Part shown: one piece after another, positions 18,209 to 36,652 of the stretch
Layout of the letters: each line of letters begins with the position of its first letter
Numbering within the stretch: position 1 is the first letter of the stretch
NCBI GenBank assembly: GCA_020073385.1
Contig: JAIQFH010000006.1
Coordinates: forward strand, 124,001-188,000
From: Terriglobia bacterium
GTDB taxonomy: Bacteria; Acidobacteriota; Terriglobia; Terriglobales; Acidobacteriaceae
Length of the DNA: 64,000 nt
Reading direction: 5' to 3'
Notes under the pieces: generated by a model
The model's database searches: none
Told to the model about the DNA's origin: nothing
What the model saw: the letters and a program-made list of their open reading frames with translations, nothing else
Position numbers and translations under genes: made by a program

Positions 18209-18231
18209 CGTGCCTCCTCATCGCCCTTTCG

Positions 18232-19803: not shown

Positions 19804-19885
19804 AATCTTCCTCCCTCCTCCTTCGCGCGGATCATCTGAACTTTCCGGTCCGCAGCGCCTTCGAGAGAATCATTTCGCCAAAATC

Positions 19886-20614: not shown

Positions 20615-20629
20615 AAAAGGCCTCCTGCC

Positions 20630-21316: not shown

Positions 21317-21610
21317 TGGGCCTCCTCTCGGTGGGTTCACCGGATCAGCCAATGACTGCGCGGATCGTCAATTTTTTGCGACCCTGAAAGGTAATTCTCG
21401 ACTTTCAGGTTGTCAATTGTTTTCATAGACTTCGGAACGCTTGGGAGCCGGACTCTTGCTCGAGCGCTGCCTTCTTTCGGCTGCTCACGCCACTCGAACG
21501 ATCACCACTCTATTCCATGCCGGAAGCCTAATCAATTCAGCTAGAATGGGCGTCTTTACCGTTCAAATTGACCGCGGTTTTTGAACGATACCTTCACCTT
21601 GAGGCCTGAC

Positions 21611-22075: not shown

Positions 22076-22260
22076 GTTGAGCTCGTTTCAAAAAAGCCTT
22101 CGGGGAGGAAACCGCTCACGGTTATTGAAAAAGCGTTGGAGCGATCCGTGTCTACTTCATCGAAGTCGTCTTTCGTTTGATCTGGGGCGTCCTTAATTTG
22201 GGAAACCGATGGGTTTTGAGGGGGGCCCCCCCTCCCTACCGGTCTATTGGAATCATCGAG

Positions 22261-22563
22261 TTAGGGGAAAATCGCAGGCAAAATCTTGGGACTCAGCAGT
22301 TTAGGGGCAAAATCTTGAGCCCCAAGGTCAGGTCCGTACTCCGCGCTGAATTCCAAGAAGCGGCGCAGATCAACTCGGTCCACGATTCCAAATGTTTTTG
22401 CCACGCGCAGACCCTCGCGGATCGTCGCATAGAGCAGGTTCCGATCCGCCGTGAGAGAACTTTCGGGGAAGCGCTTCGTCAATTGTGCGGCCAAGCTGTC
22501 TTCAAACTGCCGGAGTCGAAACTGCTGCAATACCTTCATCTGTTCGGCACGTATAACAAGCAC
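22261..22563 (-). CDS. Type VI secretion-associated small protein, probably C-terminally shortened
   Basis: 100 residues from a GTG: LVIRAEQMKVLQQFRLRQFEDSLAAQLTKRFPES, then FGIVDRVDLRRFLEFSAEYGPDL. This start and middle match the short proteins often found after DUF4123 adaptors in VgrG clusters, but the last 25 residues look unrelated and the protein is shorter than the usual 130-160. It follows the DUF4123 gene by 82 bases. The function is unknown in the family. Confidence 0.55.
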   Translation of the reverse strand: MLVIRAEQMKVLQQFRLRQFEDSLAAQLTKRFPESSLTADRNLLYATIREGLRVAKTFGIVDRVDLRRFLEFSAEYGPDLGAQDFAPKLLSPKILPAIFP

Positions 22564-22645
22564 GATCTAATCTCCGTATGCTCGACTCTGCGCCACGATG
22601 TAGACGCGTAGCTGGCGCCTCCAAACGCACCTCGTGGACTATGGC

Positions 22646-23254
22646 TCAAGACTGCTTTTGATCAAAAGTGAGGACTCGACTATCCAAAGAAATCGTCCGT
22701 GGTTCCAGTTGACGTTCCCGGAAGCGGAACTCCAGCATTGTTTCCGGATTCTCCCCCACCGTCCAGAAACATTCAATCGGTCCAAACACAGTCCGCAACT
22801 CCGCCGTAACGCAAGTCGGCAGATACACCCGCAGCACGCGCGGATCATAGTAACGGAACGCCAGACGATTACCCCGTTCATCGCGCACGATCAGGAGCTC
22901 CCGAAGATGGCGCCTAAGCTTCTTGAGCGAAGTGTCACTCCTGAGGAAGACTCCCCAACTGTTGCCCCAGGCTCGTTGGATGAGCTGGTGAGTGTCCCGG
23001 TAGCCGTGGTCGAGTTGCACTAAATACGGCGCGGCGATTTCTAACTCAGGCGTCAGCGGTCCGCTGTACAAGCACGCATATTCCAGATGACACGCAAGGA
23101 GCATCCGGAAGATTTCGATCGAGCGCGCGCCATCCAGAATCATCCAAATGTTCTGTCTTGGACCCTCCGGCCACAGGATCTCTTCGATGCGCCCGATCCA
23201 CTGCTCCGTCATAACCACCTGAGGCGGCGACCGCCGCCTTATTTGTTCGTTCAC
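22646..23254 (-). CDS. DUF4123 domain protein (type VI effector adaptor/chaperone)
   Basis: 202 residues. WMILDGARSIEIFRMLL, YACLYSGPLTPELEIAAPYLVQLD, WGNSWGVFLRSDTSLKKLRRHLRELLIVRDERG and RYYDPRVLRVYLPTC are the successive blocks of DUF4123. Proteins of this family load effectors onto the VgrG spike. The GTG start at 23254 overlaps the previous stop (GTGA), indicating translational coupling. No vgrG or structural T6SS gene lies in the window, so this is an orphan adaptor cluster. Confidence 0.85.
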   Translation of the reverse strand: MNEQIRRRSPPQVVMTEQWIGRIEEILWPEGPRQNIWMILDGARSIEIFRMLLACHLEYACLYSGPLTPELEIAAPYLVQLDHGYRDTHQLIQRAWGNSWGVFLRSDTSLKKLRRHLRELLIVRDERGNRLAFRYYDPRVLRVYLPTCVTAELRTVFGPIECFWTVGENPETMLEFRFRERQLEPRTISLDSRVLTFDQKQS

Positions 23255-23712
23255 TCCTGACAAAAAGGCGTCCCGCTGGCTGCCGCGGCTACCAACGCCG
23301 CAGCTTGCGCCGACATATTCATATGCGGTGAAAAGACCGGCAGATCTACGATAGGAGCAGGCCCCGATGCAATGCGAGGTTGACGATCCTGCAAAGGGAA
23401 AGGCACATTTCGTTCTTCAACGCCGGCGCCTCCCCCAGCCTCCATTCGCTTTTTGTGAACATGCAGTCGATCGGATGCGAACAGTTGCTCGATCTTCCGA
23501 ATAAGGGCATCGTGGGGAAGGTGAAGGGGAATACTGGAGATGTTATGTCGAGCTAGGTCTTGCAGAAGGCGCATCTTACCGGTTTCGGTTCTGAGATCCT
23601 GCAGCCGCCAACGAACCCAGGCTTGGGTCTCAAGAGGTGACGCCCGATCAGGTTCGGTGCAGTCTTGCTCCTGACAGAGCCACCATTCGTCTCTCCCAAG
23701 CCGGAAAACCAT
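23251..23712 (-). CDS. Uncharacterised protein coupled to the DUF4123 adaptor
   Basis: 153 residues, starting FRLGRDEWWLCQEQDCTEP. A segment with DALIRKIEQLFASDRLHVH sits mid-protein, and the C-terminal tail SAQAAALVAAAASGTPFCQE has the AAA...G-PFCxE ending that I associate with proteins of VgrG/DUF4123 loci. Its stop overlaps the adaptor start by four bases. It may be an effector-side or spike-associated protein; I do not recognise a catalytic motif. Confidence 0.6.
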   Translation of the reverse strand: MVFRLGRDEWWLCQEQDCTEPDRASPLETQAWVRWRLQDLRTETGKMRLLQDLARHNISSIPLHLPHDALIRKIEQLFASDRLHVHKKRMEAGGGAGVEERNVPFPLQDRQPRIASGPAPIVDLPVFSPHMNMSAQAAALVAAAASGTPFCQE

Positions 23713-23919
23713 AATAATCCTGAGGATCGATCTCGTGAGTCAACCATAACCGGGGACTAAGGCAGTCACAGATTTGAACAAAGGTGCGCCTAGGAGTCAA
23801 GGTTCAATTTTCATTGGTAATGTAAGCCTATCTGAGTAGACTTAGGTTCTGCACTCCACGTTCTTATTCCTGCCATCGTCGTCGATTGCGACTGTGTAAA
23901 TTGATATTAGGAGGCTTGT

Positions 23920-24630
23920 ATGGCTTCTCCTGCGGAAGATTTGGCTGACAGCATAAAGAGTTCCGCCGAAAAAAAGGTGGGCGGCAAGGCAGTCGACGGT
24001 GGCAAGGACAAGGGCGGCATCGATTGCTTCGCGTTGGTCGATGAGTTGATGAAGTCCGCCGGGGCCAAAAGGCCAAAAGATTTTGGAGAAGTCACGCCCA
24101 CCGCTGACTACGTGTGGGGTGATCCCGTCGAACTAGACAAGATCAAGCCTGGGGACATTCTCCAGTTTCGCGACCACTTTGTGACGATCCGCACCCTGAA
24201 GCTAGGGGAGGTCAAGTGGGAAGAGGCATCCATCGAGGGCCCTGCCAGACGTCCTCATCACACGGCAGTGGTCGTCGAAGTTCAAAAGGACGGCAGTGTG
24301 GTCGTGGTCGAGCAGAACGTAAGGCCTGATCCCAAGAAGGTTAGGCGCAGTGTTATTGCGGGCCTTGCCGCTGGAGAGGAGACGAGGTTCAAGAGCAGCG
24401 TAGAAAAACAAATCATCACCGTGACCGGCACCGTCAGGGCGTATCGACCCATTCCTAAGTCGGACGTCAAACAGGAGAAACCCGAAAAAGGGAAATCAGA
24501 AAAAGGCACCATGCTCTTCCTCTTCCCCCTGCATCCGGAACTCGACGGGGTCGGCCAGCGGACGCTGGCACAAAACAGCCCACGCGAAGGAGGAGCCAAA
24601 CGGCAACCTGGCTCCCTTGGCAAGGCTTAA
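23920..24630 (+). CDS. NlpC/P60-like cysteine amidase-type protein, candidate secreted effector
   Basis: 236 residues without a signal peptide. DCFALVDELMKSAGAK places a cysteine at the start of a helix, KPGDILQFRDH follows, then RPHHTAVVVEVQKDGSVVVVEQN, a Cys-His-polar arrangement like NlpC/P60 and CHAP amidases. The lysine-rich region after about residue 190 is low complexity. TTAGGAGGC lies 10 bases before the ATG. It is divergent from the DUF4123 cluster, so a type VI amidase effector delivered to rival cell walls is a fair inference. No immunity gene is obvious. Confidence 0.62.
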   Translation: MASPAEDLADSIKSSAEKKVGGKAVDGGKDKGGIDCFALVDELMKSAGAKRPKDFGEVTPTADYVWGDPVELDKIKPGDILQFRDHFVTIRTLKLGEVKWEEASIEGPARRPHHTAVVVEVQKDGSVVVVEQNVRPDPKKVRRSVIAGLAAGEETRFKSSVEKQIITVTGTVRAYRPIPKSDVKQEKPEKGKSEKGTMLFLFPLHPELDGVGQRTLAQNSPREGGAKRQPGSLGKA

Positions 24631-24712
24631 ACACTATCGGTCACATCTTCGTGAAGCGCCGAAGGGCTCAGTCTGAGACGCGATGGCAATCCGCGCAGCC
24701 CGTTGAAGTAGA

Positions 24713-24810
24713 TGGCGGAAGCGAATGGGAGTCGAACCCATCATCGCTATCGCGAGATAACGATCGCCGGTTTTGAAGACCGTGGTTGTCACCGGACAAC
24801 GTGCGCTTCC
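24713..24810 (-). tRNA. selC: tRNA-Sec (anticodon TCA), hybrid of element and host halves
   Basis: 98 nucleotides including the encoded CCA. Visible features are acceptor GGAAGCG/CGCTTCC, a six-pair D stem GTTGTC/GACAAC closing CGGT, an anticodon loop CTTCAAA with UCA, a long variable arm ATCGTTATC/GATAGCGAT, and a T arm ATGGG-TTCGACT-CCCAT. A six-pair D stem and a long variable arm mark tRNA-Sec. The first pair of the anticodon stem is mismatched (A with G), and the eighth acceptor pair is C/T. The 5' half, up to the anticodon loop, appears to be supplied by the integrated element. Confidence 0.93.
24772..24782. other. Attachment core, left (attL), in the tRNA-Sec anticodon arm
   Basis: TTTGAAGACCG lies in the anticodon loop and 5' stem of tRNA-Sec and is identical to the copy at 35813. 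The sequence to its right (tRNA 5' half) differs from the right-end copy, marking the side that came with the element. Confidence 0.75.
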
Positions 24811-24818
24811 TCAATGAC

Positions 24819-25961
24819 TTAGCCACTTTGCAGACCGTTTTTCGGACCGTTTTCGGACCGTTTCGCCGCGTCCGAGAGTTCCGCCATGGCGGACTCCAAG
24901 AGATTATCACGGACCTTGATGTAGCTTGCACGCGTCACCTGTACTGAGGCGTGGCGGAGGATGCGCATCACCAGAAGGTCCGAAGCACCCAGCTCGAATA
25001 GATTGCTGGCGATGCCTCTGCGGAATCCGTGGTATCCCTCAAAGCGATAGCCAGCTCGCCGGAACGCTGCGGCAATCTTCTTCTTCCCGATGTGCTCCAG
25101 CGTGTACAAGAACATCCGGCAATCGGACCCAGTGCGAATCCCGAACTCATCCTGCTTCACGAGTTCTGCCCGGTGCGCTTCGAGCGCTTCCTTCAATTGC
25201 GGAATGACCGGCACCCAGTTCTTCGATGCTGCACTTTTGGGTTCGTTGACAACGTAGTTGAACACTGACTGCCGGACGTGGAGCTGGTCGCCTTCCCAGT
25301 CGCACCATCGCAGTCCTTGCACTTCACTTCGTCTCAGACCGGCGAAGGCGCAGACGGCAACGATGGCGCGAGCCTCCAGATTGTCTTTCAATTCATCCAG
25401 CACCGCGTTGACGACCGGGAGCGTGTACGCGCTCGTGGAGCGTGGAGGCTTCAGCCCAGAAGGCAGCGTGCAATCGTGCATCGGATTCTCGCCGTAATAC
25501 AGGCCGCGCTTCTTGGCGTGCTTGAATATGCCGGAGCATAGCGCACGGATATGCTTCATCGTTGCCTTGCTCATCCGGCCAGCATTGTCCTCCGCAATGG
25601 AGTCGAGAAGGTCTTGCGCCTGAGGTGTGCCGTAGTGTCTCAACGGCTTGGCCGCCAAAGCCTTGACGTGGCGCTCGTACATGCCTTTGTACTCGTTGTA
25701 GACGGACCGGCGCACGGCTTCCCGCGCCCATGGGAGGTATGTGCGCTCAGTGAACTCCGCCAGCGTGACGTTGCGAACGTCGCGTGGACTGGTGGTGGGA
25801 AGCTTGGCGAGGACTTCTCGTGCGGCTGCATCTCTCGACTTCTGCGTGGGGAAGTCGGTGAGCTTGCCGAGCCGGAAGCCGTGGCGGACTCCATCCACCC
25901 ATATTTTGTAGTACAGCGAGTTGCCGGATTCCCAGAATGATCCCGAACCGTGTGTTCTCAT
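24819..25961 (-). CDS. int: Tyrosine recombinase (integrase)
   Basis: 380 residues. An N-terminal arm-binding region precedes a core-binding helical domain (VTLAEFTERTYLPWAREAVRR) and a catalytic domain with Arg in FAGLRRSEVQGLRW, His-x-x-Arg in YHGFRRG, His in LRHASVQVTRASY and the nucleophilic Tyr of ASYIK. It ends 9 bases from the 5' end of tRNA-Sec and so is the integrase that recognises that gene. Its C-terminal codons overlap three GACCG repeats (24833-24860). Confidence 0.92.
   Translation of the reverse strand: MRTHGSGSFWESGNSLYYKIWVDGVRHGFRLGKLTDFPTQKSRDAAAREVLAKLPTTSPRDVRNVTLAEFTERTYLPWAREAVRRSVYNEYKGMYERHVKALAAKPLRHYGTPQAQDLLDSIAEDNAGRMSKATMKHIRALCSGIFKHAKKRGLYYGENPMHDCTLPSGLKPPRSTSAYTLPVVNAVLDELKDNLEARAIVAVCAFAGLRRSEVQGLRWCDWEGDQLHVRQSVFNYVVNEPKSAASKNWVPVIPQLKEALEAHRAELVKQDEFGIRTGSDCRMFLYTLEHIGKKKIAAAFRRAGYRFEGYHGFRRGIASNLFELGASDLLVMRILRHASVQVTRASYIKVRDNLLESAMAELSDAAKRSENGPKNGLQSG
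24833..24860. other. Candidate integrase arm-type sites, left
   Basis: GACCG recurs at 24833, 24845 and 24856, each followed by T-runs (GACCGTTTTTC, GACCGTTTTC, GACCGTTTC). The same word recurs at the right end at 35703, 35723 and 35734 (CAGACCGTTCT-type), so these may be binding sites for the integrase N terminus or an excisionase. Confidence 0.4.
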
Positions 25962-26090
25962 TGCGTTGTCCTGTCAATACCGAATTGTACGTACACAACG
26001 GCGAGAATCATACGCCGGTTCCGTCAACCGTCAAAGTTCAGAGGAGAGCTGTGGGAGAGTGCGGATTGCAGACTGGAGCGTCAGACCGAA

Positions 26091-26309
26091 CTACGCACAT
26101 GCCTTACGGAAGGTCTGGATCAAGCGCCGGAAGTCCTCATCAGGCAGATGTTCAGTGATCATCATCTTGTAATTGTTTGGCGTACCTTTCATCATCCTCT
26201 TGTATTCACCCCACGTCAGCTCTATGACTTTGACTTTCTTCCTGTCACGTTTCGCTTTGCGTGCATATGCAAGCGCAGCTTTGAGCTTGTCTTCCTGTTC
26301 AATGGTCAT
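26091..26309 (-). CDS. Small lysine-rich protein of the element
   Basis: 72 residues (TIEQEDKLKAALAYARKAKRDRKKVKVIELTWGEYKRMMKG, ending DEDFRRLIQTFRKACA), helical and basic. GAGGAAC lies 7 bases before the ATG. It lies 130 bases upstream of the integrase gene on the same strand. Size and place would fit an excisionase or small DNA-binding protein, but no motif confirms this. Confidence 0.55.
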   Translation of the reverse strand: MTIEQEDKLKAALAYARKAKRDRKKVKVIELTWGEYKRMMKGTPNNYKMMITEHLPDEDFRRLIQTFRKACA

Positions 26310-27536
26310 CGGTTCCTCTGCGCCGTCGCGACGATGGGGAGTTCGGAGCGCGAGCGTGCGCCTTCAATTTGATTTGGGATTTGGCAACGTTGTAGGTCGC
26401 TGCCGACCATCCAGCTGGTTAACGCGCTGTTGCGCTCCGCCGTGTGCGTTGGGAACGATCACCGGTACGGCGATTCCACAGACCGGTCCTGAACATCATG
26501 CCACGCAACATGGAGCAGCGCAATACCACGTTCGTAACAGTTACCTTCCCAATGGGGTGGATACAAGCGCGTTCCGACCGGCTGAATCATTGCGTTGATC
26601 TCATCGTGCACGATGCGTTGAAGAACCTGCGGTCAGTGTCTTCCAGATAGAAGGCGCCAAAGTTCAGAATCTTGACCTGCCCACGAGGAAGGCCCAAGCA
26701 CGCACTGTTGCGTTCGTCTGCGAGTTGAGGTGGGTGGCGATGAACGGCTTATTTAGACTTGCGGTCAGTGTCTTCCAGATAGAAGGCGCGGAGACGAAGG
26801 ACACGCTGCGCATCGCAACGGTCGCAAGGTATCCAACGTCAAGGTCTTGAATCCGAGAGTTGAGCAGCTTGTACCGTTCGTCGCTGAACTCATCTTCGCT
26901 CGCGGAGACGAGCGCCGCCACCAGCCAGAATGCGAATCTCCTGCTGACCGTAGTTGCGCTTGATCCACGTCAAACTTGCCGTTCTGCAACAACGCACTGC
27001 GCGAACGGTCGCCTTTGTCCAGAAAGTCCGTTGACTCGCCCAGTATTAGGACACCCAACGCTCACAGAGAACTGGTCTCAGTGACATTCCTGTAGGCTGA
27101 GACACATTCCGCTCCGTGCCGAAGAGAATGGACGGCTTTGTCTATGATCCGGAGAAGCCGTATGAACGCCGGTCTCAGGAACCGGCGAGTTCAGCACGCA
27201 ACGTGTGGAAGGACGTGAATCCCAGACCGATTGCCAGCCCATGTGATGATCCCATAGCTAACGAACTGTGTGAATGTTGGGGTGATTTGGTCGCGGCTAT
27301 AGCCGGGGAGCAAAACGCAAGCGATTGCGGGTTGTCCACGAGTTCGAACTCAATGCTGGGAGGTGCATTCTGCAGGTTGGGATTGGCAGTCGCCGGTTCT
27401 CGTTGTCCCGGATCATAGGTGGGAGGTGCGTGCGTGCGGGCAGGAGTCGAGTGGTGCGGATTGCGCTTTGTAGGGCAAAGTAGGTTCGTTCGGACGGGTG
27501 CGTGGTGAGGCGTGCGGCTCATTTTCGGGGAGCGCT
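26310..27536. other. Gene-poor stretch with decayed coding remnants
   Basis: No intact gene is supportable. On the minus strand around 26600-27060 there are short broken pieces, one of which (GAFYLEDTDRRFF, at about 26630) mirrors the FFLNDTDRRFF motif of the element's own primase-helicase, suggesting a decayed second helicase of that family. Two 30-base direct repeats (26628, 26760) cover this motif. Confidence 0.4.
26628..26789. repeat. 30-base direct repeat, two copies (26628-26657 and 26760-26789)
   Basis: Both copies begin TGCGGTCAGTGTCTTCCAGA and end in AGAAGGCGC, and they are identical over 30 bases with starts 132 bases apart (a multiple of three). On the minus strand each encodes AFYLEDTDR. 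They probably arose by duplication within a former helicase gene. Confidence 0.6.
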
Positions 27537-27783
27537 CCAAGCTCACCCAAGCTTTGCGGTACAAAGCGACTCATTCTAACGCGAGTCACCCGGCTTGGTA
27601 GCTTGGGTAGCTTGGGTAAAAGCCGACACTGACGGGCTAGGAATATTATGTTTATAATAAGACCTTTTTTCTCCCTCCTTTTATTACTAATCTATCCAAG
27701 CTCTCCAAGCTCTCCAAGCTCAATATGATGTCTACAGCACGAAAATGAGCTTGGGTAAAATATCCATCCAAGCCTTCCAAGCT
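27537..27783. repeat. Iteron cluster around an AT-rich core, candidate replication origin
   Basis: About eleven copies of AGCTTGG or its complement CCAAGCT. Tandem AGCTTGGGT lies at 27600 and 27609; three tandem CCAAGCTCT at 27696, 27705 and 27714; further copies at 27537, 27547, 27592 (GGCTTGGT), 27748, 27768 and 27777. Opposed arrays flank an AT-rich tract at 27640-27695 (for example ATTATGTTTATAATAAG), conspicuous in GC-rich DNA. The region lies upstream of the primase-helicase gene, as expected of an origin bound by that protein. The next 300 bases, to 28098, show no gene. Confidence 0.65.
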
Positions 27784-28098
27784 ATCAGTCACTTAGCGCG
27801 CACCCGTCTCCTGCCCAGAGTCGAGCCTACCAACCACGCAAAGCGCACCTTGCAACCATTTCCTGTCTCACATACTCGACTAATGACCACCGCAGCATGG
27901 CAATTACAGGCGAAAATAATCGTAGACTTGCACGGCTGTAATTTGGCATAATCGAATTGATAGATTGAAGCGTTCGGAAACGGGCGATTCTCTTAGCGAA
28001 GCCTACGCTCCTTCGGAAGTCAGAAGGTCTGGCAGAGAAGTTCCGGAGTATCGGGACGCCACGTAACGGTGGAACTCTGAACCAGAAAGGCATCGCAG

Positions 28099-28380
28099 AT
28101 GCAAACTGAAGAAGTTGTTGACCCTACCCTGAGCAGTTCTTCCCGCTCGTATTCCACCTGTGATCTAGACTTCGCTGCCACGATGATCATGGAAGGCACT
28201 CTCACGCTCGCCGGTTGGGACCCATCCCTAGACGGTAGGCGCGTTGAGTTCCGCTTTGCTGATCCCGAAGGCAAAGGTCCGCGTCTAGAGATGGAGTTCC
28301 AGAACTCCCACGCGCTTCGCCTGTTCAACGTACGCAAGAGTCTAGTAAACAAAACGCGTGACGTGCTCCGTCGCCGGTAG
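28099..28380 (+). CDS. Small DUF5659-like protein
   Basis: 93 residues. YSTCDLDFAATMIMEGTLTLAGWDPSLDGRRVEFRFADPEG and a helix with LFNVRKSLVNKTRDVLRRR fit DUF5659, a family I know from phages and mobile elements beside primase genes. It is the first gene of the rightward run and ends 22 bases before the primase-helicase start. The function is unknown. Confidence 0.6.
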   Translation: MQTEEVVDPTLSSSSRSYSTCDLDFAATMIMEGTLTLAGWDPSLDGRRVEFRFADPEGKGPRLEMEFQNSHALRLFNVRKSLVNKTRDVLRRR

Positions 28381-28402
28381 TTCACCACTCAAAGGGAGAA
28401 CT

Positions 28403-30520
28403 ATGGCCAAACGTCACCCAGCCCAAGACTTCTTCCTGTCCCGGCTCGCCGCGTCCGGCGTGACGGAGGAACAGGCGCGTCTCAGTGGCGTTGTTCCAGC
28501 CACGAAGGACGAAGCGCGCAAGACGTTCCCCAAACTACCGGAGATCATCACGGACCTTGGCATGCTGATCCGGTATTCCGCTAGCGCATGCCGATATCGC
28601 TGCAACTGGGACCGCAAGCCCAAGTACCTACAACCCAAAGGCTCCGGCTCGTTGTTGTTCTTCCCGAAGGTCAAGCTTCTCGATTGGGAGAAGGTATTAG
28701 CCAGCGACCGTCCTATCTACATCGTGGAAGGCGAGCTGAAAGCGCTCGCGCTCTGCCTGAACGGCTTCGCTGCGATTGGGATAGGTGGAGTCAACAGCTT
28801 CGTCCAGCATGGGGTCATTCATCCTGAGCTGGTCAAGTTCTTCAAAGATCGTGTTGTCTATGTAGTATTCGATTCGGACGCGGAGAATAATCCCAACGTC
28901 GCCGTTGCAGCCGCGAAGTTGCAAGTGGAGATCACTGATGCCGGTGGTACTCCGATGCTAATCCGCATACCGTTCATCGATGGGGACGAGTATGACAAGG
29001 ACAAAACCGGCGTGGACACCTTCCTTCGTATTGAAGGCGCACGAGCCTTCGATGAGCTGGACAAAGAGGATTTTGAACTCGCCAAGCGCATGTTGGAATT
29101 CAACAGGCGATACGTCCAATGTGAGTCTCCCGCATCCGTGATTCGCATACCGAAGCAGACCGTGGAGCCGGAGAACCTGCGTCAGTGGTCGCCGGAGCGG
29201 TTCTTCAACTTCGTTGAATCGGCTGCCGGTAAGGTGAGGATCGAGGATGGAGTCAATAAGGACGGAACGATCAAGCACAAAACTGTGCGAGCTTCCGAAC
29301 ACTGGGTTAAGGATTACGCCGGTCGCAATCTCGTGAACTGCATGACGTTCCGTCCCGGTCCGGTGGGATTGGAGCCGGAGCGTTACATAACCGAGAACGG
29401 CGAGCGCAAGCTCAATCTGTGGTCCGGCTGGAACGCGGAGCCGGTTCGTGATGATGAACTCGTGAAGCCATTCCTAGCGTTGCTGCTCCACTCATTCAGC
29501 CGGGAGACAGATAAGGTTAGACAGGAATTGTTACTAGAGTTCACGCTCAGCTGGATGGCGTATCCCATCCAGCATCCGGGAGCCATTCTAGAGCAAGCGC
29601 TTGCCTTCGTTGGCGTACAAGGCTCCGGCAAGACTCTCCCGTTCAGCCTCTACGGTCAGTTATACGGCGCATCATTCCTAGTTGTGGGAGAGGACCAGCT
29701 GCAATCGAATTTCAACAGTTGGGTTGCCAACCGTCTGTTCATTCTCGGAGAGGAGATTACTGGCGAGAAAAACAACCGGCAGTATGCCAACAAGTTGAAG
29801 ACCATGATCACGGGCAAGAATGTGATCATCAACACCAAGTACGTCCCGGAGTACAAACTTCCCAATTATGCCAACTACGCTTTCACAACGAACGATTATG
29901 ACGCCTTCTTCCTGAACGATACTGACCGCAGGTTCTTCATCAGTCGTACTCCGGAAGTACAATTGGTCTCCGCGTTGGGGCTGGAGAAAGTCAAGTATCT
30001 AGACGAGACATGGCGACGGGATCAGCGCTGCCTCAACGCTCTCATGCATTACTTACTCCACTACAAAATTGATCCAAAGGTGTACAAACCTGCCGGGATT
30101 GATCCTCCGCGAACCGAAGCCAAGGCTCACATGATGCTGACGAGTATGAATGCAGCGCAACGCTGGCTGAAAGAATTCACAGAGGATGAGGACAAACGCC
30201 GCAATACATTCACCAACAAGGTCCGGACCTTGTTCCGCTCGGAGGATTTGTTCAATCAGTTCGATGTAGACAAAAAGCAGAAGCATGGAATGACGGATAA
30301 GGCATTCACCAACGCTCTTGTAGATCGTTTCTATAAGCCTTTGACGTATCCGGTTGATGGTTGCAAGGTCCGTACAGAAAAGGTTGGGACCAACGGCGAG
30401 TTCACGCTCAAGGAGATGAAGCTGAACCTTTGGGCTATCCAGCCGCAGTACGGAGGACCGGAGCGGACGTTGAACAAGAAGAGCGCTGCCGCAATCTGGA
30501 ACGAGGAGAACACCAAGTGA
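28403..30520 (+). CDS. Primase-helicase: Toprim (DUF3854-like) plus DUF5906/D5-like helicase
   Basis: 705 residues from the ATG at 28403 (GGGAGAA 6 bases upstream). The N-terminal Toprim-like region has IYIVEGELKALALCLNGF and VVYVVFDSDAENNP (about residues 100-160). The C-terminal helicase has Walker A AFVGVQGSGKTLPF, Walker B-like NRLFILGEEITGEKN and sensor NYAFTTNDYDAFFLNDTDRRFF. Such proteins prime and unwind DNA for autonomous phage, plasmid or satellite replication. The iterons at 27537-27783 are its likely target. Confidence 0.85.
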   Translation: MAKRHPAQDFFLSRLAASGVTEEQARLSGVVPATKDEARKTFPKLPEIITDLGMLIRYSASACRYRCNWDRKPKYLQPKGSGSLLFFPKVKLLDWEKVLASDRPIYIVEGELKALALCLNGFAAIGIGGVNSFVQHGVIHPELVKFFKDRVVYVVFDSDAENNPNVAVAAAKLQVEITDAGGTPMLIRIPFIDGDEYDKDKTGVDTFLRIEGARAFDELDKEDFELAKRMLEFNRRYVQCESPASVIRIPKQTVEPENLRQWSPERFFNFVESAAGKVRIEDGVNKDGTIKHKTVRASEHWVKDYAGRNLVNCMTFRPGPVGLEPERYITENGERKLNLWSGWNAEPVRDDELVKPFLALLLHSFSRETDKVRQELLLEFTLSWMAYPIQHPGAILEQALAFVGVQGSGKTLPFSLYGQLYGASFLVVGEDQLQSNFNSWVANRLFILGEEITGEKNNRQYANKLKTMITGKNVIINTKYVPEYKLPNYANYAFTTNDYDAFFLNDTDRRFFISRTPEVQLVSALGLEKVKYLDETWRRDQRCLNALMHYLLHYKIDPKVYKPAGIDPPRTEAKAHMMLTSMNAAQRWLKEFTEDEDKRRNTFTNKVRTLFRSEDLFNQFDVDKKQKHGMTDKAFTNALVDRFYKPLTYPVDGCKVRTEKVGTNGEFTLKEMKLNLWAIQPQYGGPERTLNKKSAAAIWNEENTK

Positions 30521-31044
30521 GCCGGAGACCACAGGACAAACCACAAACCAAGCTTCGTATGCAATCGCGACGAGCGCGTGCCTTGCAGCTGTTCAAACAG
30601 GGCAAGAGCACACGCGAAGCTTCGAAGATTCTGAAGTCCGAAGGCTTCCCGAAGGCTTCCCAGTCCACCGTCAGTTGTGACCTTCGCTCGTTGCAAGCTG
30701 ACTTCGCTGAGATCGTACCGCAGGAAAGACAGGCTGCATACGAGGAGTTGAAAGCGCTCAAACAGATGATCACTTCGTCCGATGACCTCCGGACCGGCGA
30801 AGCGATCAAGCTGCTGCTGGAGACGCATGACCGGCTGAGCAGACTCTTAGGACTTGACGCACCCAACAAGACCATCAGCGCCAAGATTGACGCCACCGTG
30901 GACCCGGAGAAGCTGCAAGGTTATCGCAAGTTTGTAGTCGAAACGCAGTTGCTATCTAGGGAACAACTCGAAGCCGTCTATCAGTACGCTCGCTCGCTGA
31001 GACCGGCTCCGGCTCCCATATCTCTCAAAGGAGAATTGCAATGA
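30517..31044 (+). CDS. Helix-turn-helix protein, probable small terminase subunit
   Basis: 175 residues from a GTG that overlaps the helicase stop (GTGA), with GAGGAG 8 bases upstream. RARALQLFKQGKSTREASKILKSEGFPKASQSTVSCDLRSLQADF is a helix-turn-helix of the terminase small-subunit or phage regulator type. The rest is helical. Its position two genes before the large terminase supports a DNA-recognition subunit of the packaging motor; a regulatory role is the alternative. Confidence 0.6.
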   Translation: MSRRPQDKPQTKLRMQSRRARALQLFKQGKSTREASKILKSEGFPKASQSTVSCDLRSLQADFAEIVPQERQAAYEELKALKQMITSSDDLRTGEAIKLLLETHDRLSRLLGLDAPNKTISAKIDATVDPEKLQGYRKFVVETQLLSREQLEAVYQYARSLRPAPAPISLKGELQ

Positions 31045-31589
31045 GCAGAACGTTCCAAGATGTAGTTAACGAACTCAACAACGAGGTCAAACAAACTCGC
31101 GGGCAACTTCGCGTGGCGTATGTGAAGTATGGGTATGTGGACGGCGATCACGTCTGGGTTGGTTCTGTTATGGAAGCCAAGGATACGCCGTTGGCTCCCT
31201 ACATTGTATGGGATGAAGAGAATCAGGTGTTTGAATACCGTCCTCCCAAATACTGGAACAGTGTAGTGCCTCCATACTGGGCTGATCGAAATCAGACCTT
31301 CTGGTTTGACGTCATACAACCGCATGAGATTGTCACAAGCAAAACATTCGATGCTGTACGTGACTTAGCTGGTTACCACCTTCGACTCATGATTCTAGTC
31401 TCCCGAAGAGAAGCGAAGGTCAAGGATGGAAGGTCAATCCATGAAATCGAGCGAGCGAAGGCGAAGGTGAAGGATTTGAACAAGGCTATGCGAGTGTTAT
31501 GCGAGGCCAAGAACAATTGGGCTGAGATCAAACGTTCTCCCAGAACAGAAGGAGCGCGTGACCGAAGGACACGTAAACAACCTGCGTGA
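31041..31589 (+). CDS. Uncharacterised element protein
   Basis: 182 residues starting at an ATG that overlaps the previous stop (ATGA). The N-terminal half is tryptophan- and tyrosine-rich (YVKYGYVDGDHVWVGSVMEAKD, YIVWDEENQVFEYRPPKYWNSVVPPYW); the C-terminal third is basic and helical. I do not recognise the family. The overlap places it in the packaging operon. Confidence 0.55.
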   Translation: MSRTFQDVVNELNNEVKQTRGQLRVAYVKYGYVDGDHVWVGSVMEAKDTPLAPYIVWDEENQVFEYRPPKYWNSVVPPYWADRNQTFWFDVIQPHEIVTSKTFDAVRDLAGYHLRLMILVSRREAKVKDGRSIHEIERAKAKVKDLNKAMRVLCEAKNNWAEIKRSPRTEGARDRRTRKQPA

Positions 31590-31660
31590 GTGGCTGAAGA
31601 GTCCTCACATAGACGAACGTCAACGGCAGTACAACCTGAGAGTAATTGAGAGGTGGGAAC

Positions 31661-33202
31661 GTGAGACTGATAGACTTCGCAACACTAGCACGACCGGGAT
31701 GGAAGTTCGATTGGCACCATCGGCTGACGTTCGACTTACTAGAACGTTGCGCGCTGGAGCCGGACTTTCCCAGCGTGCTGGTGTCCATGCCTCCCGGAAG
31801 CGCTAAGACGGAGACGGTGGCGATCATCTTCCCGGCTTGGTGCATAGCGCACGATCCACTCAAGGAGAAGATCATCTCACTGAGCAATGCAGCCAACCTG
31901 TCTCAGATGGCGTGCACCAACGTGCAGCGGATTCTCCTCCAGCCGCAAGTGGCGGAGCACTTCCCGCTGGAGTTCGATAAATGCACCCAGACGGAGTTCA
32001 CCATCGTGGGGAGCGATGGCAGACCGGCGATGTATGCAGTTCCACTTGGAGGCTCCGTCACCGGTGCTCGCGCTCGAATCCTGATCTATGACGACTTGGT
32101 CAAGAGTCTCGAAGTTGCGTTGAGCGAAGTACAGCTGTCCAGCATCAACGCGGAGTTCTCTGCGGTGGCGGAGACGCGCATACTGCCCGGAGGAAAGATT
32201 GTCGGCATCGGTACTCGCTGGAGCCTGAAGGACGTTCACGAGCAGCTGTTGCAGCGAGCGCGCAACGGAGGGCGCCCATTCATCTTCCTGAACCTAGCGG
32301 CCACGAACGACTCCGGCGAAGCCTCTTGGCTATATGACAGCCGGACGAACGAGCATCAGTACTTCGAACCGTACAAAGCTTTGGCGAAAATTCCCGGCCA
32401 GCCGTACTCGTTCACGCGAGCCGATTATGACGGTAAGCGAGCGGACCTGGGCAACGCACTATTCGAGACGCTGTATCAGGGCAATCCGACTTCGCAGCTG
32501 GACGCCTTGTTCCCAGCGGACGGTTGGACCATGTTGGAGGAAGGCTTCAACACGGATGACATAGCCTTCGTCATCACCAGCTGGGATACCAGTACCGGCA
32601 AGAGTTCCGACTACAGCGCCAACGTCACCATCTTGGTGATGAATGATGGTAGCGTCCGAGTCGATGACGTGTGGACCGGCAAGCCACAATTCGCCGACCT
32701 AATGGGCATCATCATGCACCGATACAGCATGATCAGCCAGCGCTACCATCACGTTCCGCTGTTGGTGATTGAAGATAGTTCCAGCGGTACGCAAGCGCTG
32801 CAACTTCTACAGACGCAAGCACCGGACGTTCCGGTCTATGTAGCCAAAGCCGTCAAGTCCAAAGTCATACGCGCTCAAGGTGTAACTCCGCTGACGCGCT
32901 CCGGTCGCGTGGGAGTACCGAAGAATGCTCCGTGGCGTCAATCGTTCATCAGCCATATGGCTCAGTTCCCGGTCGGACGGAACGATGACGTTTGCGACGC
33001 CTTCACTCATGCTTGCAAGGCGTTGCTGACCAAGGATGAGTTCCACCGCGTAGACAACTGGCAGCGGACTCCGGGACGGTTGCTGAGCGCGGAGGAACAG
33101 GAGCGAGCACTGCGGCGAGAGATGGAGCAGGAGTATCTGGACGGCGTGGCATTCGGAATCAGTGTTATTGACTCAGAACTAGACGAGGTGGACCGTGGCT
33201 AA
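31661..33202 (+). CDS. Phage terminase large subunit
   Basis: About 513 residues from a GTG preceded by AGAGGTGG; a TTG at 31646 would add five. The ATPase half has a Walker A-like SMPPGSAKTETV and Walker B ARILIYDDLV. The nuclease half has the acidic residues of an RNase H fold: TSWDTSTGKSSDYSANV, LLVIEDSSSGTQALQLL and GRNDDVCDAFTHAC. It cuts and translocates DNA into a capsid. No portal or capsid gene follows, so it would have to act on another phage's procapsid. Confidence 0.9.
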   Translation: MRLIDFATLARPGWKFDWHHRLTFDLLERCALEPDFPSVLVSMPPGSAKTETVAIIFPAWCIAHDPLKEKIISLSNAANLSQMACTNVQRILLQPQVAEHFPLEFDKCTQTEFTIVGSDGRPAMYAVPLGGSVTGARARILIYDDLVKSLEVALSEVQLSSINAEFSAVAETRILPGGKIVGIGTRWSLKDVHEQLLQRARNGGRPFIFLNLAATNDSGEASWLYDSRTNEHQYFEPYKALAKIPGQPYSFTRADYDGKRADLGNALFETLYQGNPTSQLDALFPADGWTMLEEGFNTDDIAFVITSWDTSTGKSSDYSANVTILVMNDGSVRVDDVWTGKPQFADLMGIIMHRYSMISQRYHHVPLLVIEDSSSGTQALQLLQTQAPDVPVYVAKAVKSKVIRAQGVTPLTRSGRVGVPKNAPWRQSFISHMAQFPVGRNDDVCDAFTHACKALLTKDEFHRVDNWQRTPGRLLSAEEQERALRREMEQEYLDGVAFGISVIDSELDEVDRG

Positions 33203-33512
33203 AAAGTCAGTATCGCAACTTGTAGAGGAAGATTTGCAGCAGCTCCGGCAGGACGAGTACCGGGATGCACTGTCTGCGGCTCGCGCTCGTAAAGAAGCGA
33301 AGGCGCAGCAAGCGGAAGCTCACGTCATCGTGGACGAAATCAGCGACGTGCTGCGCGAGCACAAGATTGACCCCAACACCAAACAAGGCTTCCGGCGATT
33401 CGTGCAGTTGATAGGACGGAGAGTCATGAGCGCTGCGAGCGGTGGCGGATACGCTCGCACGCTATCCGGCGAAGAAGATGAACTGGACTTCAGCAAGAAA
33501 CGTAGTTGGTAG
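33195..33512 (+). CDS. Small charged protein of the element
   Basis: 105 residues from a GTG overlapping the terminase end by 8 bases, with GAGGTG upstream. It is highly charged and helical (SQLVEEDLQQLRQDEYRDALSAARARKEAKAQQAEAH) with a C-terminal GFRRFVQLIGRRVMSAASGG. No known family; perhaps a packaging accessory protein. Confidence 0.5.
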   Translation: MAKKSVSQLVEEDLQQLRQDEYRDALSAARARKEAKAQQAEAHVIVDEISDVLREHKIDPNTKQGFRRFVQLIGRRVMSAASGGGYARTLSGEEDELDFSKKRSW

Positions 33513-33545
33513 GCGACCAAATTCAAAATCGAAGGAGAAAGCACA

Positions 33546-33896
33546 ATGAGGAAAGTAACGCGCAAGCAATGGCAGGAAGGTGTGACGGCGTATCAGTCAT
33601 ACCAGAAGAAGGTGAACAACAAGACCATCAGCGTGGTTGATGCTGAGAAGTTCTTGTCCAAGGTCGCCACTGTGGATGAAGTGGTCCGGGAGACCATCAA
33701 GCCGGAGAAACGTCGCGTCACCATCAACGAGACTTCCGGCAAGCCGGAGGAGTTCAGGCCGGACTTCGGTCTGCTCGGCCTGAAGCCGGAAGAAGCCAAG
33801 ATTGCCAACCAGGAGACGGGCAACACCAACCCAGCGACCATGACGAACCAAGATTGGTCCAACATCTTCGATAGGAGCAACCGCAATGGCCGATAG
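33546..33896 (+). CDS. Small protein of the element
   Basis: 116 residues after a clear GAAGGAGAAA site. It has a basic N terminus (RKVTRKQWQEGVTAYQSYQKK) and a polar, asparagine-rich tail. The family is unknown. It overlaps the next gene by 11 bases, so the two are coupled. Confidence 0.5.
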   Translation: MRKVTRKQWQEGVTAYQSYQKKVNNKTISVVDAEKFLSKVATVDEVVRETIKPEKRRVTINETSGKPEEFRPDFGLLGLKPEEAKIANQETGNTNPATMTNQDWSNIFDRSNRNGR

Positions 33897-34347
33897 CATC
33901 TTGACACCCTGCAACGCAGTAGACACCAACAAGCTGGCGAAGCAAATGAAAGCGCAGTTTGACGCCCAGCCCAAGATTGACAACCGAACTGCGGAGGACT
34001 TGAAGATTGAACTCCGTGGTTTGACTGACCGCATGGAGAGTCACGAGGAGTTGCGTGACAACGGCGAAGAACAGCTCAAGGAGTTGCGTGACCGATTCGC
34101 CGCCAAGACCAATGCCTTGAACGTGGCCAGGGACATGGTGAAGGTCCAGCCACGGTTGCGTGGTGACATTCGGGACTTGGAACGCGCAATCGAAGGTCTA
34201 ACGGAGGAGATCAAAGACGGGGAAGCATTCGTCAAGCGCCACTCCAACATCGCGGATGATTTGGCGAAGAAGATCAAAGCCTTTGATCACAAACGGCTGA
34301 AGCAACTCGAAGCGCAGGAGAAAGTATTGCAGCAAGCTGGTCTTTAG
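33886..34347 (+). CDS. Coiled-coil protein of the element
   Basis: 153 residues, nearly all helical with heptad repeats (ELRGLTDRMESHEELRDNGEEQLKELRDRF, IRDLERAIEGLTEEIKDGEAF). Size and shape recall phage scaffolds or satellite proteins that redirect capsid assembly, which would suit an element that lacks its own capsid. That is speculation; no sequence motif supports it. Confidence 0.5.
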   Translation: MADSILTPCNAVDTNKLAKQMKAQFDAQPKIDNRTAEDLKIELRGLTDRMESHEELRDNGEEQLKELRDRFAAKTNALNVARDMVKVQPRLRGDIRDLERAIEGLTEEIKDGEAFVKRHSNIADDLAKKIKAFDHKRLKQLEAQEKVLQQAGL

Positions 34348-34512
34348 AGATGTAGCGCAGCTGTCCTAGTCTCGGGACAGTTGTACTTCACTCCAACGCG
34401 AGGAGCCGGGGAGCCGGGATTCGCGTGGCGGTCTTGGATGCACCGACCTTCATGGAAGCATCCACTTGGGAGCCGGGACTTTCCTCTGGGTTCGCGGCTC
34501 CCACTTTTAACT

Positions 34513-34746
34513 ATGAGCAAACAAATTGCAGTAATGACGCTGAAGGAAGCCGTGGACTCGCTCCAGCGAGCGCTCACGCTATTGGACGCGAAGGACGCGG
34601 AGATTAGGTATCTGAACAACTTGAATCTGGAACTCCGAGAACAACGCGAGCAATTCAAGGAGATGGCAGCCAAGCTGATGGTCAAGAAGTCGGACGAGCG
34701 TCAACGGCTCCGGGACATGCCATGCTGTTCCGATTTGATCCATTGA
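34513..34746 (+). CDS. Small coiled-coil protein of the element
   Basis: 77 residues (SKQIAVMTLKEAVDSLQRALTLLDAKDAEIRYLNNLNLELREQREQF), a leucine-zipper-like helix. No ribosome-binding site is evident, and GC-rich GAGCCGGGA repeats precede it. The family is unknown. Confidence 0.4.
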   Translation: MSKQIAVMTLKEAVDSLQRALTLLDAKDAEIRYLNNLNLELREQREQFKEMAAKLMVKKSDERQRLRDMPCCSDLIH

Positions 34747-34748
34747 GA

Positions 34749-34913
34749 TTCACGGACGCTGGCGGCGAACCTGCCCCCAAGCGCGTCCGTGAAGGCTGGG
34801 TACACCGGCTCCGTTATCCTTGGCGGAGCCGGTTCGAAGATTCGCTGACCTGACCAGCCAGCGAAGTCGGGAGTTGGCTGAGCCATTTGAAGGGTGGCCA
34901 GAACCAACTCCCG
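34749..34913 (+). other. Three successive strong hairpins, possible structured RNA or terminator array
   Basis: Perfect inverted repeats follow one another: TTCACGGACGC/GCGTCCGTGAA (34749, 34783), ACCGGCTCCG/CGGAGCCGGT (34804, 34824) and CGGGAGTTGG/CCAACTCCCG (34869, 34904). None has a T-run, so ordinary terminators are unlikely. Nothing codes in 34747-35102. Confidence 0.45.
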
Positions 34914-35102
34914 GCATTTAGGTTTGCTGGACGCCACGCCAGCAATGAACGGGACGCGGTGGGCTCCAGCCAGTCCACCGCCCTCCCCGTTTTACCCACC
35001 TTTGCTGTCGGTTAACCCTACGTTACCTTTGCGCTCTTTGACCCTGCAAACGTTCCGTCTATGATCCTCCTGTTGATCAACTGATCAATAACGGAGGAGA
35101 CA

Positions 35103-35354
35103 ATGGCAAAGCAAATTCAAGACACGCAAGACTCAATCTGGACGCTGGTGAAGCAACCCAAGGACGGCGACGGCTGCGGTGGAGCGCGTCTCGCGATATG
35201 CAGGGTGTTGGCGAAGGCTCCGGGCAAGCGCATGAAGCGCTCGAAGCTGGCTGGGCTGGTCGCGAAGGCTCGCGTGTCTCGGCAGGATTCGAATTACCTT
35301 CTTAGTCTCAAGAAGAAGTTCCTCGTGGACGGTGGCTGGATCACCGTTCGTTAA
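35103..35354 (+). CDS. Small basic, winged-helix-like protein of the element
   Basis: 83 residues with GGAGGAGACA before the ATG. ARLAICRVLAKAPGKRMKRSKLAGLVAKARVSRQDSNYLLSLKKKFLVDGGWITVR reads like a small winged helix. It may be a regulator of the element; no closer family was recognised. Confidence 0.5.
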   Translation: MAKQIQDTQDSIWTLVKQPKDGDGCGGARLAICRVLAKAPGKRMKRSKLAGLVAKARVSRQDSNYLLSLKKKFLVDGGWITVR

Positions 35355-35419
35355 CCGGCTCGCGTCCCGGCTGGAACCGGAGCGCGAGCCTAACCGCAAG
35401 GCACATATGGAGGTGCCCG

Positions 35420-35650
35420 TTGGCTGTTGAAAGTATCCGTGATCGTCAACTGTTTGACAACTTCCGCAAGGCATATCCCGATGTCTCAGGCCGATTGTTC
35501 CGCGACCTTGACATCGCAACCGTCAAAGGCCTGAAGCCTCTCCCGTCCTTCGTCGCCACGCGCATAGGTTTGTACTTGCTCCGCAGGTTCCACGTGGAGA
35601 AGTACATCTCACCACCAGTCGAGGTGGATGACGGGCGGTGGATCAAATAG
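35420..35650 (+). CDS. Small protein at the right end of the element
   Basis: 76 residues from a TTG chosen because GGAGGTG stands 5 bases upstream. It reads AVESIRDRQLFDNFRKAYPDVSGRLFRDLDIATVKGLKPL, and no family is recognised. A hairpin GGCTCGCG/CGCGAGCC precedes it, and the terminator at 35665 follows 15 bases after its stop. Confidence 0.5.
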   Translation: MAVESIRDRQLFDNFRKAYPDVSGRLFRDLDIATVKGLKPLPSFVATRIGLYLLRRFHVEKYISPPVEVDDGRWIK

Positions 35651-35664
35651 CATGGCGATGAAAC

Positions 35665-35700
35665 ACGGCTCCGGGACTCCCACCGGAGCCGTTTTACTTT
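35665..35700 (+). terminator. Rho-independent terminator closing the element's rightward genes
   Basis: ACGGCTCCGG/CCGGAGCCGT stem with an 8-base loop, followed by TTTTACTTT. Confidence 0.8.
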
Positions 35701-35702
35701 CA

Positions 35703-35738
35703 GACCGCAATCGTCAATCTCAGACCGTTCTCAGACCG
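35703..35738. other. Candidate integrase arm-type sites, right
   Basis: TCAGACCG or CAGACCG occurs at 35703, 35723 and 35734, about 80-110 bases inside the right attachment core. The repeated word matches the left-end GACCG repeats. Confidence 0.4.
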
Positions 35739-35812
35739 TCTCCCACCGGAATACACGGTAAAACACCCCTAAAACCCAACGAAAACCACAATAAACGGGT
35801 GACCCTGACGCC

Positions 35813-35851
35813 TTTGAAGACCGGGACGATCACCGGACCGCATGCGCTTCC
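35813..35851 (-). pseudogene. Displaced 5' half of the original tRNA-Sec, including right attachment core (attR)
   Basis: Read on the minus strand from 35851: acceptor GGAAGCGCA, D stem GCGGTC/GATCGT closing CGGT, then CCGGTCTTCAAA, ending in the anticodon loop. Length (39 nucleotides) equals the matching part of the intact tRNA. With the 3' half at 24713, this half would give a fully paired anticodon stem (CCGGT/ACCGG), better than the present hybrid. No gene lies in 35852-35965. Confidence 0.82.
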
Positions 35852-35965: not shown

Positions 35966-36652
35966 CTACTTCGGCTGCTTTGCTACTCTGAGATACGGCT
36001 TGATCGTTCTGAAGCCGGGGAATTTCTGCTGCGCCTCGTCGTTCGAAACCGCCGCCGTGAGGATCACATCCTCGCCGGGCTTCCAGTTCACCGGAGTCGC
36101 CACTTTGTGCTTCGCCGTGAGCTGCATCGAATCGATCACGCGCAGGATCTCGTCGAAGTTCCGCCCCGTGGTCATGGGATAGCTGATCTGCAGCTTGATC
36201 TTTTTGTCCGGACCAATCACAAACACGGTGCGCACCGTGGCATTATCGGCGGGAGTGCGGCCTTCGCACGATTCCCCGGAATCGCCAGGCAGCATCCCGT
36301 ACAGCTTGGCTACTTTCAATTGGGGGTCGCCAATCATCGGGTAGTTGACCTTCGCGCCCTGCGTTTCTTCGATGTCGCCCTCCCACTTCTGATGGCTCGA
36401 AACCGGGTCGACGCTCAGCCCGATGATCTTCACGTTGCGCTTGGCGAACTCCGGCTGCAACTTCGCCATGTAGCCGAGCTCCGTCGTGCAAACCGGCGTG
36501 AAGTCCTTCGGATGCGAAAATAGAACTGCCCATCCGTCGCCGATCCAGTTATGGAATTGAATGGTCCCTTGCGTGGTTTCGGCGGTGAAATCTGGCGCCG
36601 TGTCGTTGATTCTGGGAACGCTATAGGTCTCGTTTGCGGTCGCGGTAGTCAT
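35966..36652 (-). CDS. Peroxiredoxin, 1-Cys (Prx6-type)
   Basis: 228 residues. The peroxidatic cysteine sits in HPKDFTPVCTTELGYM (about residue 55), and the long C-terminal domain (NWKPGEDVILTAAVSNDEAQQKFPGFRTIKPYLRV) is that of Prx6-type enzymes, which reduce hydrogen and organic peroxides. GAAGGAGAAA precedes the ATG. The 5' region contains a promoter, a four-cysteine leader peptide and a terminator, implying attenuation by cysteine supply. Confidence 0.93.
   Translation of the reverse strand: MTTATANETYSVPRINDTAPDFTAETTQGTIQFHNWIGDGWAVLFSHPKDFTPVCTTELGYMAKLQPEFAKRNVKIIGLSVDPVSSHQKWEGDIEETQGAKVNYPMIGDPQLKVAKLYGMLPGDSGESCEGRTPADNATVRTVFVIGPDKKIKLQISYPMTTGRNFDEILRVIDSMQLTAKHKVATPVNWKPGEDVILTAAVSNDEAQQKFPGFRTIKPYLRVAKQPK

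Follow-up and report, generated by a model that had tools for sequence, protein, structure and literature searches.

Integration into tRNA genes: described systems and the present locus

In enterobacteria, the gene for the selenocysteine tRNA (tRNA-Sec) is the integration site of the selC islands, which are 3'-end insertions accompanied by 3' fragments. The element considered here shares tRNA-Sec with those islands as its integration site. It lies in a stretch of 64,000 nt, hereafter the window, from Terriglobia bacterium GCA_020073385.1 (contig JAIQFH010000006.1, positions 124,001-188,000, forward strand), where it spans window positions 24772-35812 (11,041 bp) and is inserted in the tRNA-Sec anticodon loop. 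The reading put forward here, to which we assign a probability of about 0.94, is that the element integrated at tRNA-Sec and that its own 5' half replaced that of the host.

Replacement of a 5' half is in itself already known. In the Islander collection, 159 of 3919 islands carry a 5' tDNA fragment, and this 5' type accounts for at most 7.6% of the 2083 anticodon-centred islands (PMC4383910). In those islands, a tRNA gene split by a tyrosine integrase is made whole again by the island, and a displaced 5' fragment is found upstream (PMC4383910); the same is seen here, where the fragment is located upstream of the rebuilt tRNA-Sec. For pTN3-like archaeal integrations, a review describes expression from the integrase promoter and states that such events are seldom encountered in bacteria (PMC8371274); their integrases are archaeal, whereas the element here is bacterial and supplies a half visibly unlike the displaced one. 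The tRNA-dependent lysogeny of mycobacteriophages is alike in that integration occurs in a tRNA gene and the lysogen needs the tRNA sequence of the element (PMC10865867). In that case, however, the attachment sites of phage and host (attP and attB) have only ~10 bp in common, the tRNA is not restored, and the phage itself brings a whole tRNA, while the present element supplies half a tRNA and the gene is rebuilt, so that it does not qualify as a case of tRNA-dependent lysogeny.

The locus shows three features of tyrosine-integrase insertions at the anticodon loop: an integrase at one end, a like-oriented tRNA fragment at the other that stops within that loop, and an empty site in relatives. 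A literature search that reached few subscription papers returned neither a tRNA-Sec case with a visibly different half nor a family of bacterial integrases with frequent 5'-type insertion or repeated switches of polarity.

Two different 5' halves at one tRNA-Sec

An intact tRNA-Sec is recognised on the reverse strand at 24713-24810 by ARAGORN and by the Rfam model RF01852 (68.4 bits; gathering score 47); it is the sole copy above the Rfam cut-off in the genome, and ARAGORN found no other tRNA gene in the window. This resident gene is a chimera of the element-supplied 5' half (24772-24810) and the 3' half of the host (24713-24771), whereas the displaced original 5' half, of 39 nt, is located at 35813-35851, all three on the reverse strand. 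Between the resident and displaced 5' halves, 31 of 39 positions are identical. The longest block identical in both is TTTGAAGACCG, and their common stretch CGGTCTTCAAA, an 11-bp block given as read on the tRNA strand, runs to the end of the anticodon loop. It is present as the right copy (24772-24782) and the left copy (35813-35823) of the att core, inside which the crossover is probably located. When the DNA upstream of the integrase was searched with the resident half, the best match was 35813-35851 (31/39), compared with 22/39 in the reversed-strand control; given this difference, and since the displaced 39-mer equals 21 of 29 same-genus 5' halves, the half-to-half match is not due to chance.

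The two halves differ in their D stems, GTTGTC/GACAAC in the resident half and GCGGTC/GATCGT in the displaced one, the latter being the common D stem of the genus; both form six of six pairs. In the resident hybrid, the fifth anticodon-stem pair is an A opposite G, a position that would pair in a tRNA made of the displaced half and the resident 3' half. The first-pass annotation had proposed all of these features (the intact gene with its separate 39-nt half, the compensated D-stem differences and the A-G mismatch), and each of them held. Predicted free energies were also computed for the pre- and post-insertion tRNAs and have little bearing on function; for locus L051, the predicted best fold is not a cloverleaf.

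Empty sites in relatives identify the original half

A first-pass search with RF01852, run with stricter filters, covered the window's genome and 60 relatives and found tRNA-Sec at 64 bits or more in at least 28 of 36 same-genus relatives. Among 29 same-genus copies, the window excluded, 21 match the displaced 5' half at all 39 positions and the remainder differ from it at one or two positions, except for locus L041, which shows eight differences and itself adjoins an integrase. The peroxiredoxin gene of the host (35966-36652, reverse strand) flanks the displaced half, and in 15 of 28 same-genus loci it lies 6-177 nt from the 5' end of tRNA-Sec; three further loci have it at 447-924 nt, one at 2.2 kb and another at 3.6 kb, and no peroxiredoxin was found near tRNA-Sec in the other 8 of 28. 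More generally, the right flank of the window, from the peroxiredoxin gene onwards, has a match at 21 of the tRNA-Sec loci searched in relatives, 47 in all.

The flanks were then considered as joined, in an 899-nt sequence comprising the peroxiredoxin gene, spacer, displaced 5' half and resident 3' half. Seven relatives were picked for alignment from 15 with peroxiredoxin near the tRNA, and all seven uninterrupted sites aligned end to end, with an identity of 77-82% over ungapped columns in 7-21 alignment blocks. Each of them agrees with the displaced half at 39/39 positions and with the resident half at 31/39. Since the uninterrupted sites of relatives carry the displaced half joined to the peroxiredoxin side, the resident 5' half is the newcomer. 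This comparison is the empty-site check that the first-pass annotation had called for, and it bears out the claim that the present 5' half was supplied by the element, as do the prevalence of the displaced half in the genus, the position of the integrase next to the resident half, and the occurrence of another such element in G021 (locus L041).

Integrase, terminal repeats and proposed mechanism

The tyrosine integrase (380 aa; 24819-25961, reverse strand; PF00589 at 1.8e-9, phrog_1 at 5.7e-47) adjoins the resident half, its stop codon being situated 8 nt upstream of the tRNA-Sec 5' end. Residues R210, K242, H311, R314 and Y347, which we take to be the catalytic motif of tyrosine integrases, are invariant across eight aligned sequences including that of the window; a sequence search at 1e-3 found no relative of the integrase in the PDB. 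Three direct repeats (TTTGCAGACCGTTT / TTTTCGGACCGTTT x2) with a spacing of 11-12 nt are found on the forward strand at 24827-24863, within the 3' end of the integrase gene, and are putative arm-type sites. At the opposite end, 35698-35739 on the forward strand holds three further repeats (TTTCAGACCGC / TCTCAGACCGT x2), likewise putative arm sites. The former set is of a T-rich plus RGACCGT type, the latter is related, and both are near the att cores. Across the window, RGACCGT is clustered and not enriched (16 found vs 14.8 expected), and only at 24833-24861 do three GACCGT occur within 60 bp on one strand. In number, spacing and position, these repeats are like the arm-type sites of lambda-like integrases, and the integrase would be expected to bind them. 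A weak sigma-70-like promoter match (10 of 12; 26007-26034, reverse strand), which precedes the listed start of the integrase by 46 nt, is the only one found on that strand in 24600-26300, where shuffled sequences give 0.6 expected sites.

In the proposed mechanism, the tyrosine integrase would recombine attP of the element with an attB formed by the tRNA-Sec anticodon arm, the exchange probably taking place within the 7-bp anticodon loop. The attP would bear a 5' tRNA half directly downstream of the integrase gene (int), so that the 5' half of the host and its upstream DNA would be moved to the far end, while a full tRNA-Sec would be rebuilt from the 5' half of the element and the 3' half of the host. 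The rebuilt tRNA would be transcribed along with int, the chimera would still be functional and the element would be able to excise.

The sister element and the anticodon-stem A

In the same-genus genome G021, an integrase 74% identical to that of the window lies directly upstream of tRNA-Sec (L041). In the 5' half of this tRNA, the D stem is a third variant, AGATTC/GAATCT, which pairs throughout and differs completely from that supplied in the window; the anticodon stem carries the same A. That the D stems have been altered on both sides and still pair argues that the supplied halves were kept working as tRNA.

The shared A turns the core into GACCGT, the same motif as in the terminal repeats, and it might conceivably be retained for the integrase, a guess based on two cases. 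The competing view, that the A at the fifth pair reflects neutral drift in the element half and is neither a selected integrase motif nor a functional change, has slightly less than an even chance. In its favour, mismatches in the first five anticodon-stem pairs also occur in four tRNA-Sec genes outside the genus (49 rows examined), there are only two element cases, L041 has no repeat cluster and RGACCGT is not enriched window-wide. It has to be set against this that, among the 30 same-genus copies including the window, such a mismatch is restricted to the two integrase-bearing cases, whose D stems are wholly different, and that the A creates precisely the core that matches the repeats.

Points against integration and alternative origins

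Several observations weigh against integration with 5'-half replacement. On the 3' side of tRNA-Sec, the flank differs in most relatives, and only G034 matched among the loci searched: the host gene that adjoins the 3' side of tRNA-Sec there corresponds to 21581-22075 (forward strand), with 90% nucleotide identity over 20011-22088. The 2.6 kb between this gene and the 3' side of tRNA-Sec in the window (22089-24712) are missing in G034. No displaced 3' tRNA fragment was found in the left flank (18000-24700), the 2.6-kb stretch included, so there is no sign of a 3'-type element there. The element in G021 ends at a contig edge and no displaced half was found in that genome. The supplied half may have drifted inside the element or may derive from another host: as for a cellular source, a CACGG-stem pattern, which would miss a source lacking the A, matched 5 of 399 class genomes; the four other than the window's do not have the resident D stem, nor a relative of the integrase within about 1.5 kb. 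Finally, a full-length FdnG-type formate dehydrogenase was not found in G021 (84% complete) or in G011, so the use of tRNA-Sec there is unsupported by that gene.

An origin of the unlike halves by partial duplication, gene conversion or assembly chimerism, with no integration at all, is very improbable. The genome assembly does consist of 140 contigs, and in three or more relatives (G015, G034 and G036) tRNA-Sec falls at the edge of a contig, but the window is internal to a contig of 295,949 bp, the integrase, clustered repeats and end points in the anticodon loop fit integration, and the same layout is found again in further genomes and at further tRNAs. Least credible of all is the reverse polarity, with the resident tRNA-Sec native and 35813-35851 the element's own half, because, even though the sequence alone leaves both copies as candidate host halves and the 3' half with the left flank is host DNA, 35813-35851 is the commonest half of the genus and, as in relatives, continues into the peroxiredoxin side, the integrase is next to the resident half, and the empty-site relatives contradict it.

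Polarity in the integrase family

Relatives of the integrase were detected at 1e-30 in 31 of 399 class genomes, and an alignment of eight acidobacterial integrases matched 72 loci in genome contigs whose titles name Acidobacteria or subgroups. The scoring of polarity covered 102 loci (the window, L059-L087 and L100-L171), with a tRNA required between -40 and +600 nt from the integrase stop; 75 were kept and 27 dropped, among them L115, where a tRNA-Ser overlapping the integrase frame was found only with a wider limit. Removal of 13 exact duplicates left 62 distinct loci, in which near-copies remain, and some family matches, including L157, are short C-terminal fragments. With polarity assigned from gene order, 35 of these 62 are of the 5' type and 27 of the 3' type, so by this measure the 5' type is the commoner form in the acidobacterial family.

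Both polarities occur at the same tRNA species (5'/3' counts: Sec 2/1, Ser-GCT 7/11, Arg-CCT 6/3, Thr-CGT 3/4, Lys-TTT 4/2, Met-CAT 5/2, Arg-CCG 2/1 and Ser-TGA 1/2), whereas His-GTG and Arg-TCT are associated with the 5' type only and Arg-TCG with the 3' type only. In the Islander data, the 5' type makes up about 4% of islands (PMC4383910), and since the samples are not matched, in phylogeny or in the gene-order inference, this contrast is indicative. The first-pass annotation had called 5'-half replacement unusual, which stands for islands generally (159/3919, PMC4383910) and fails for this integrase family (35/62 by gene order). That annotation made no mention of the integrase-tRNA spacing, of repeats close to the two ends or of switches of polarity in the family. 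At tRNA-Sec itself, G381 (L065/L182) has a relative of the integrase on the 3' side, in mirror polarity; a displaced 3' half was not found in the 18.6 kb searched.

Eight of the 35 5'-type loci yielded a displaced 5' half: the window, L103, L113 (a longer copy of L070), L148, L157, L161, L178 (which extends L059) and L188 (which extends L073). Except in the window, displaced and supplied halves are identical or nearly so. The match stops at the end of the anticodon loop in six of the eight and 2-3 nt beyond it in L113 and L157. For the 3' type, a full displaced half was found in L105 only, and a 21-nt fragment in L104/L181. At the other loci no displaced half was found, either because the contigs end too early or because the stretch searched (up to about 20 kb) has none; this includes the sister pair of opposite polarity L075/L084 (L190, L194). 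The mismatch-penalising scan used for this purpose left the window's own 31/39 pair unflagged (score 15 vs 11 in the control).

For a tree, integrases of at least 180 aa with a tRNA within 150 nt were retained, giving 47 (26 of the 5' and 21 of the 3' type). It shows ten polarity changes, at least seven of which are forced by well-supported branches, compared with 15.7 in shuffles; polarity, changing less often than in shuffles and yet repeatedly, is thus inherited but not fixed. The flips likely stem from the anticodon arm being nearly dyad-symmetric, so that the integrase could read it both ways.

Presumed use and expression of the chimeric tRNA

The genome of the window encodes selA and selB above cut-off, together with a formate dehydrogenase whose reading frame contains one TGA, in QARV*HGPTV, which we take to be its selenocysteine site. 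The chimera is the only visible candidate in the genome for decoding this TGA. A single tRNA-Sec, selA, selB and a TGA-bearing formate dehydrogenase together suggest that the chimeric tRNA-Sec is presumably used. The further claim of the first-pass annotation, that the selenocysteine apparatus is altered, is accurate for the gene sequence and holds at that level only.

Following integration, the native region upstream of tRNA-Sec is 11 kb away, and the 8 nt between int and the tRNA make a separate promoter impossible outside the int gene. The gap from the int stop to the tRNA is no longer than 50 nt in 31 of the 35 distinct 5'-type loci, and in three of these 31 the tRNA starts before the stop. 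Judging from this spacing, co-transcription of int and tRNA would be expected.

It has been considered whether the tRNA half of attP is part of an integrase switch, in which maturation of the tRNA silences int once the element is integrated; we regard this as unlikely. After 5'-type integration, int and the complete tRNA would form one transcript, and the RNase P cut at the tRNA 5' end would leave, in the window, an int mRNA with an 8-nt tail, or, in L102, where int overlaps the tRNA, would fall within the open frame. By clipping the int mRNA in this way, RNase P would turn int off only in the integrated state. The only tRNA-Sec of the host would become element-dependent, and flips to the 3' type, with int running antisense into the tRNA, would exchange one control for another.

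Other genes of the element

Phage satellites, such as phage-inducible chromosomal islands (PICI) and P4-like elements, are small elements with an integrase, primase/helicase-like and terminase genes. When ten element proteins were compared with Pfam and PHROGs, a primase-like protein and a terminase large subunit (TerL) were recognised and no capsid or tail gene. The primase/helicase-like protein (28358-30520; DUF3854 and DUF5906, VapE-like below cut-off) matched 1 of 399 class genomes at 1e-20, the window's own. It is followed by a small helix-turn-helix-like protein (30361-31044; HTH_23 below cut-off, phrog_645 at 6.1e-7), whose listed start overlaps the preceding gene and which one might guess to be a small terminase. 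TerL (31646-33202; phrog_38 at 5.2e-64, PF17289 at 7.4e-9) has relatives in phage records that are 26-28% identical, the best among the matches listed. Small open reading frames at 33195-33512, 33546-33896, 33886-34347, 34381-34746 and 35103-35354 have no family match, apart from low-scoring ones for 33886-34347. A terminator-like hairpin at the distal element end (35665-35692; 0.5 expected in shuffles) is, like all these genes, on the forward strand. PADLOC gave two low-scoring matches among the ten proteins, and relatives of the integrase, primase or TerL were not found in viral contigs with single-protein queries, which reach close relatives only. Set beside phage satellites, the element differs in carrying TerL; it may be satellite-like or a reduced prophage.

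Other tRNA-Sec loci

In G011 (L050), tRNA-Sec (8843-8940) is accompanied by a second 5' half 2.1 kb upstream (10995-11033, 39/39), beside peroxiredoxin; the locus holds no relative of the window integrase and may mark a 5'-type element, small or decayed, inserted at this site. In G013 (L088), a 5' half (1072-1110, 37/39) is situated 13.6 kb upstream of an intact tRNA-Sec (14745-14842) on the same strand, the interval containing efflux and transport genes and no relative of the window integrase. On one contig of G034 (L039), tRNA-Sec is present twice, complete and identical, at 2151-2248 and 14218-14315, a distance of 12 kb; the second copy is at the contig end.

The RF01852 matches listed include no intact tRNA-Sec for 8 of the 36 same-genus genomes (G001, G002, G009, G010, G017, G020, G028 and G035), and all eight have a formate dehydrogenase match with one TGA somewhere in frame. 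G002 and G017 retain only about the last 25 nt of tRNA-Sec, and G035 is 97% complete. Either assembly loss at an integration hotspot or another cause could account for the missing genes. In G001, the 5' half (L089, 11089-11127) and the 3' half (L203/L214, about 374-435) are on separate contigs, and each gives way to non-tRNA sequence at the anticodon loop; an intact tRNA-Sec was not found, and the flanks match none of the compared relatives' loci. Here, either two elements of opposite polarity hide the rebuilt gene or the gene is broken. Outside this subject, an Acido-Lenti-1 RNA in the window (13763-13808; RF01687, 51.1 bits) fits an acidobacterial genome.

Significance

According to the reading preferred here, a mobile element rewrote half of a single-copy, specialised tRNA, and the displaced and resident genes provide a natural before/after pair for what a selenocysteine tRNA tolerates. 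At the level of the family, integrases that flip between 5' and 3' replacement would make the cause of polarity, and its effects on the host tRNA and on integrase expression, testable within one family.

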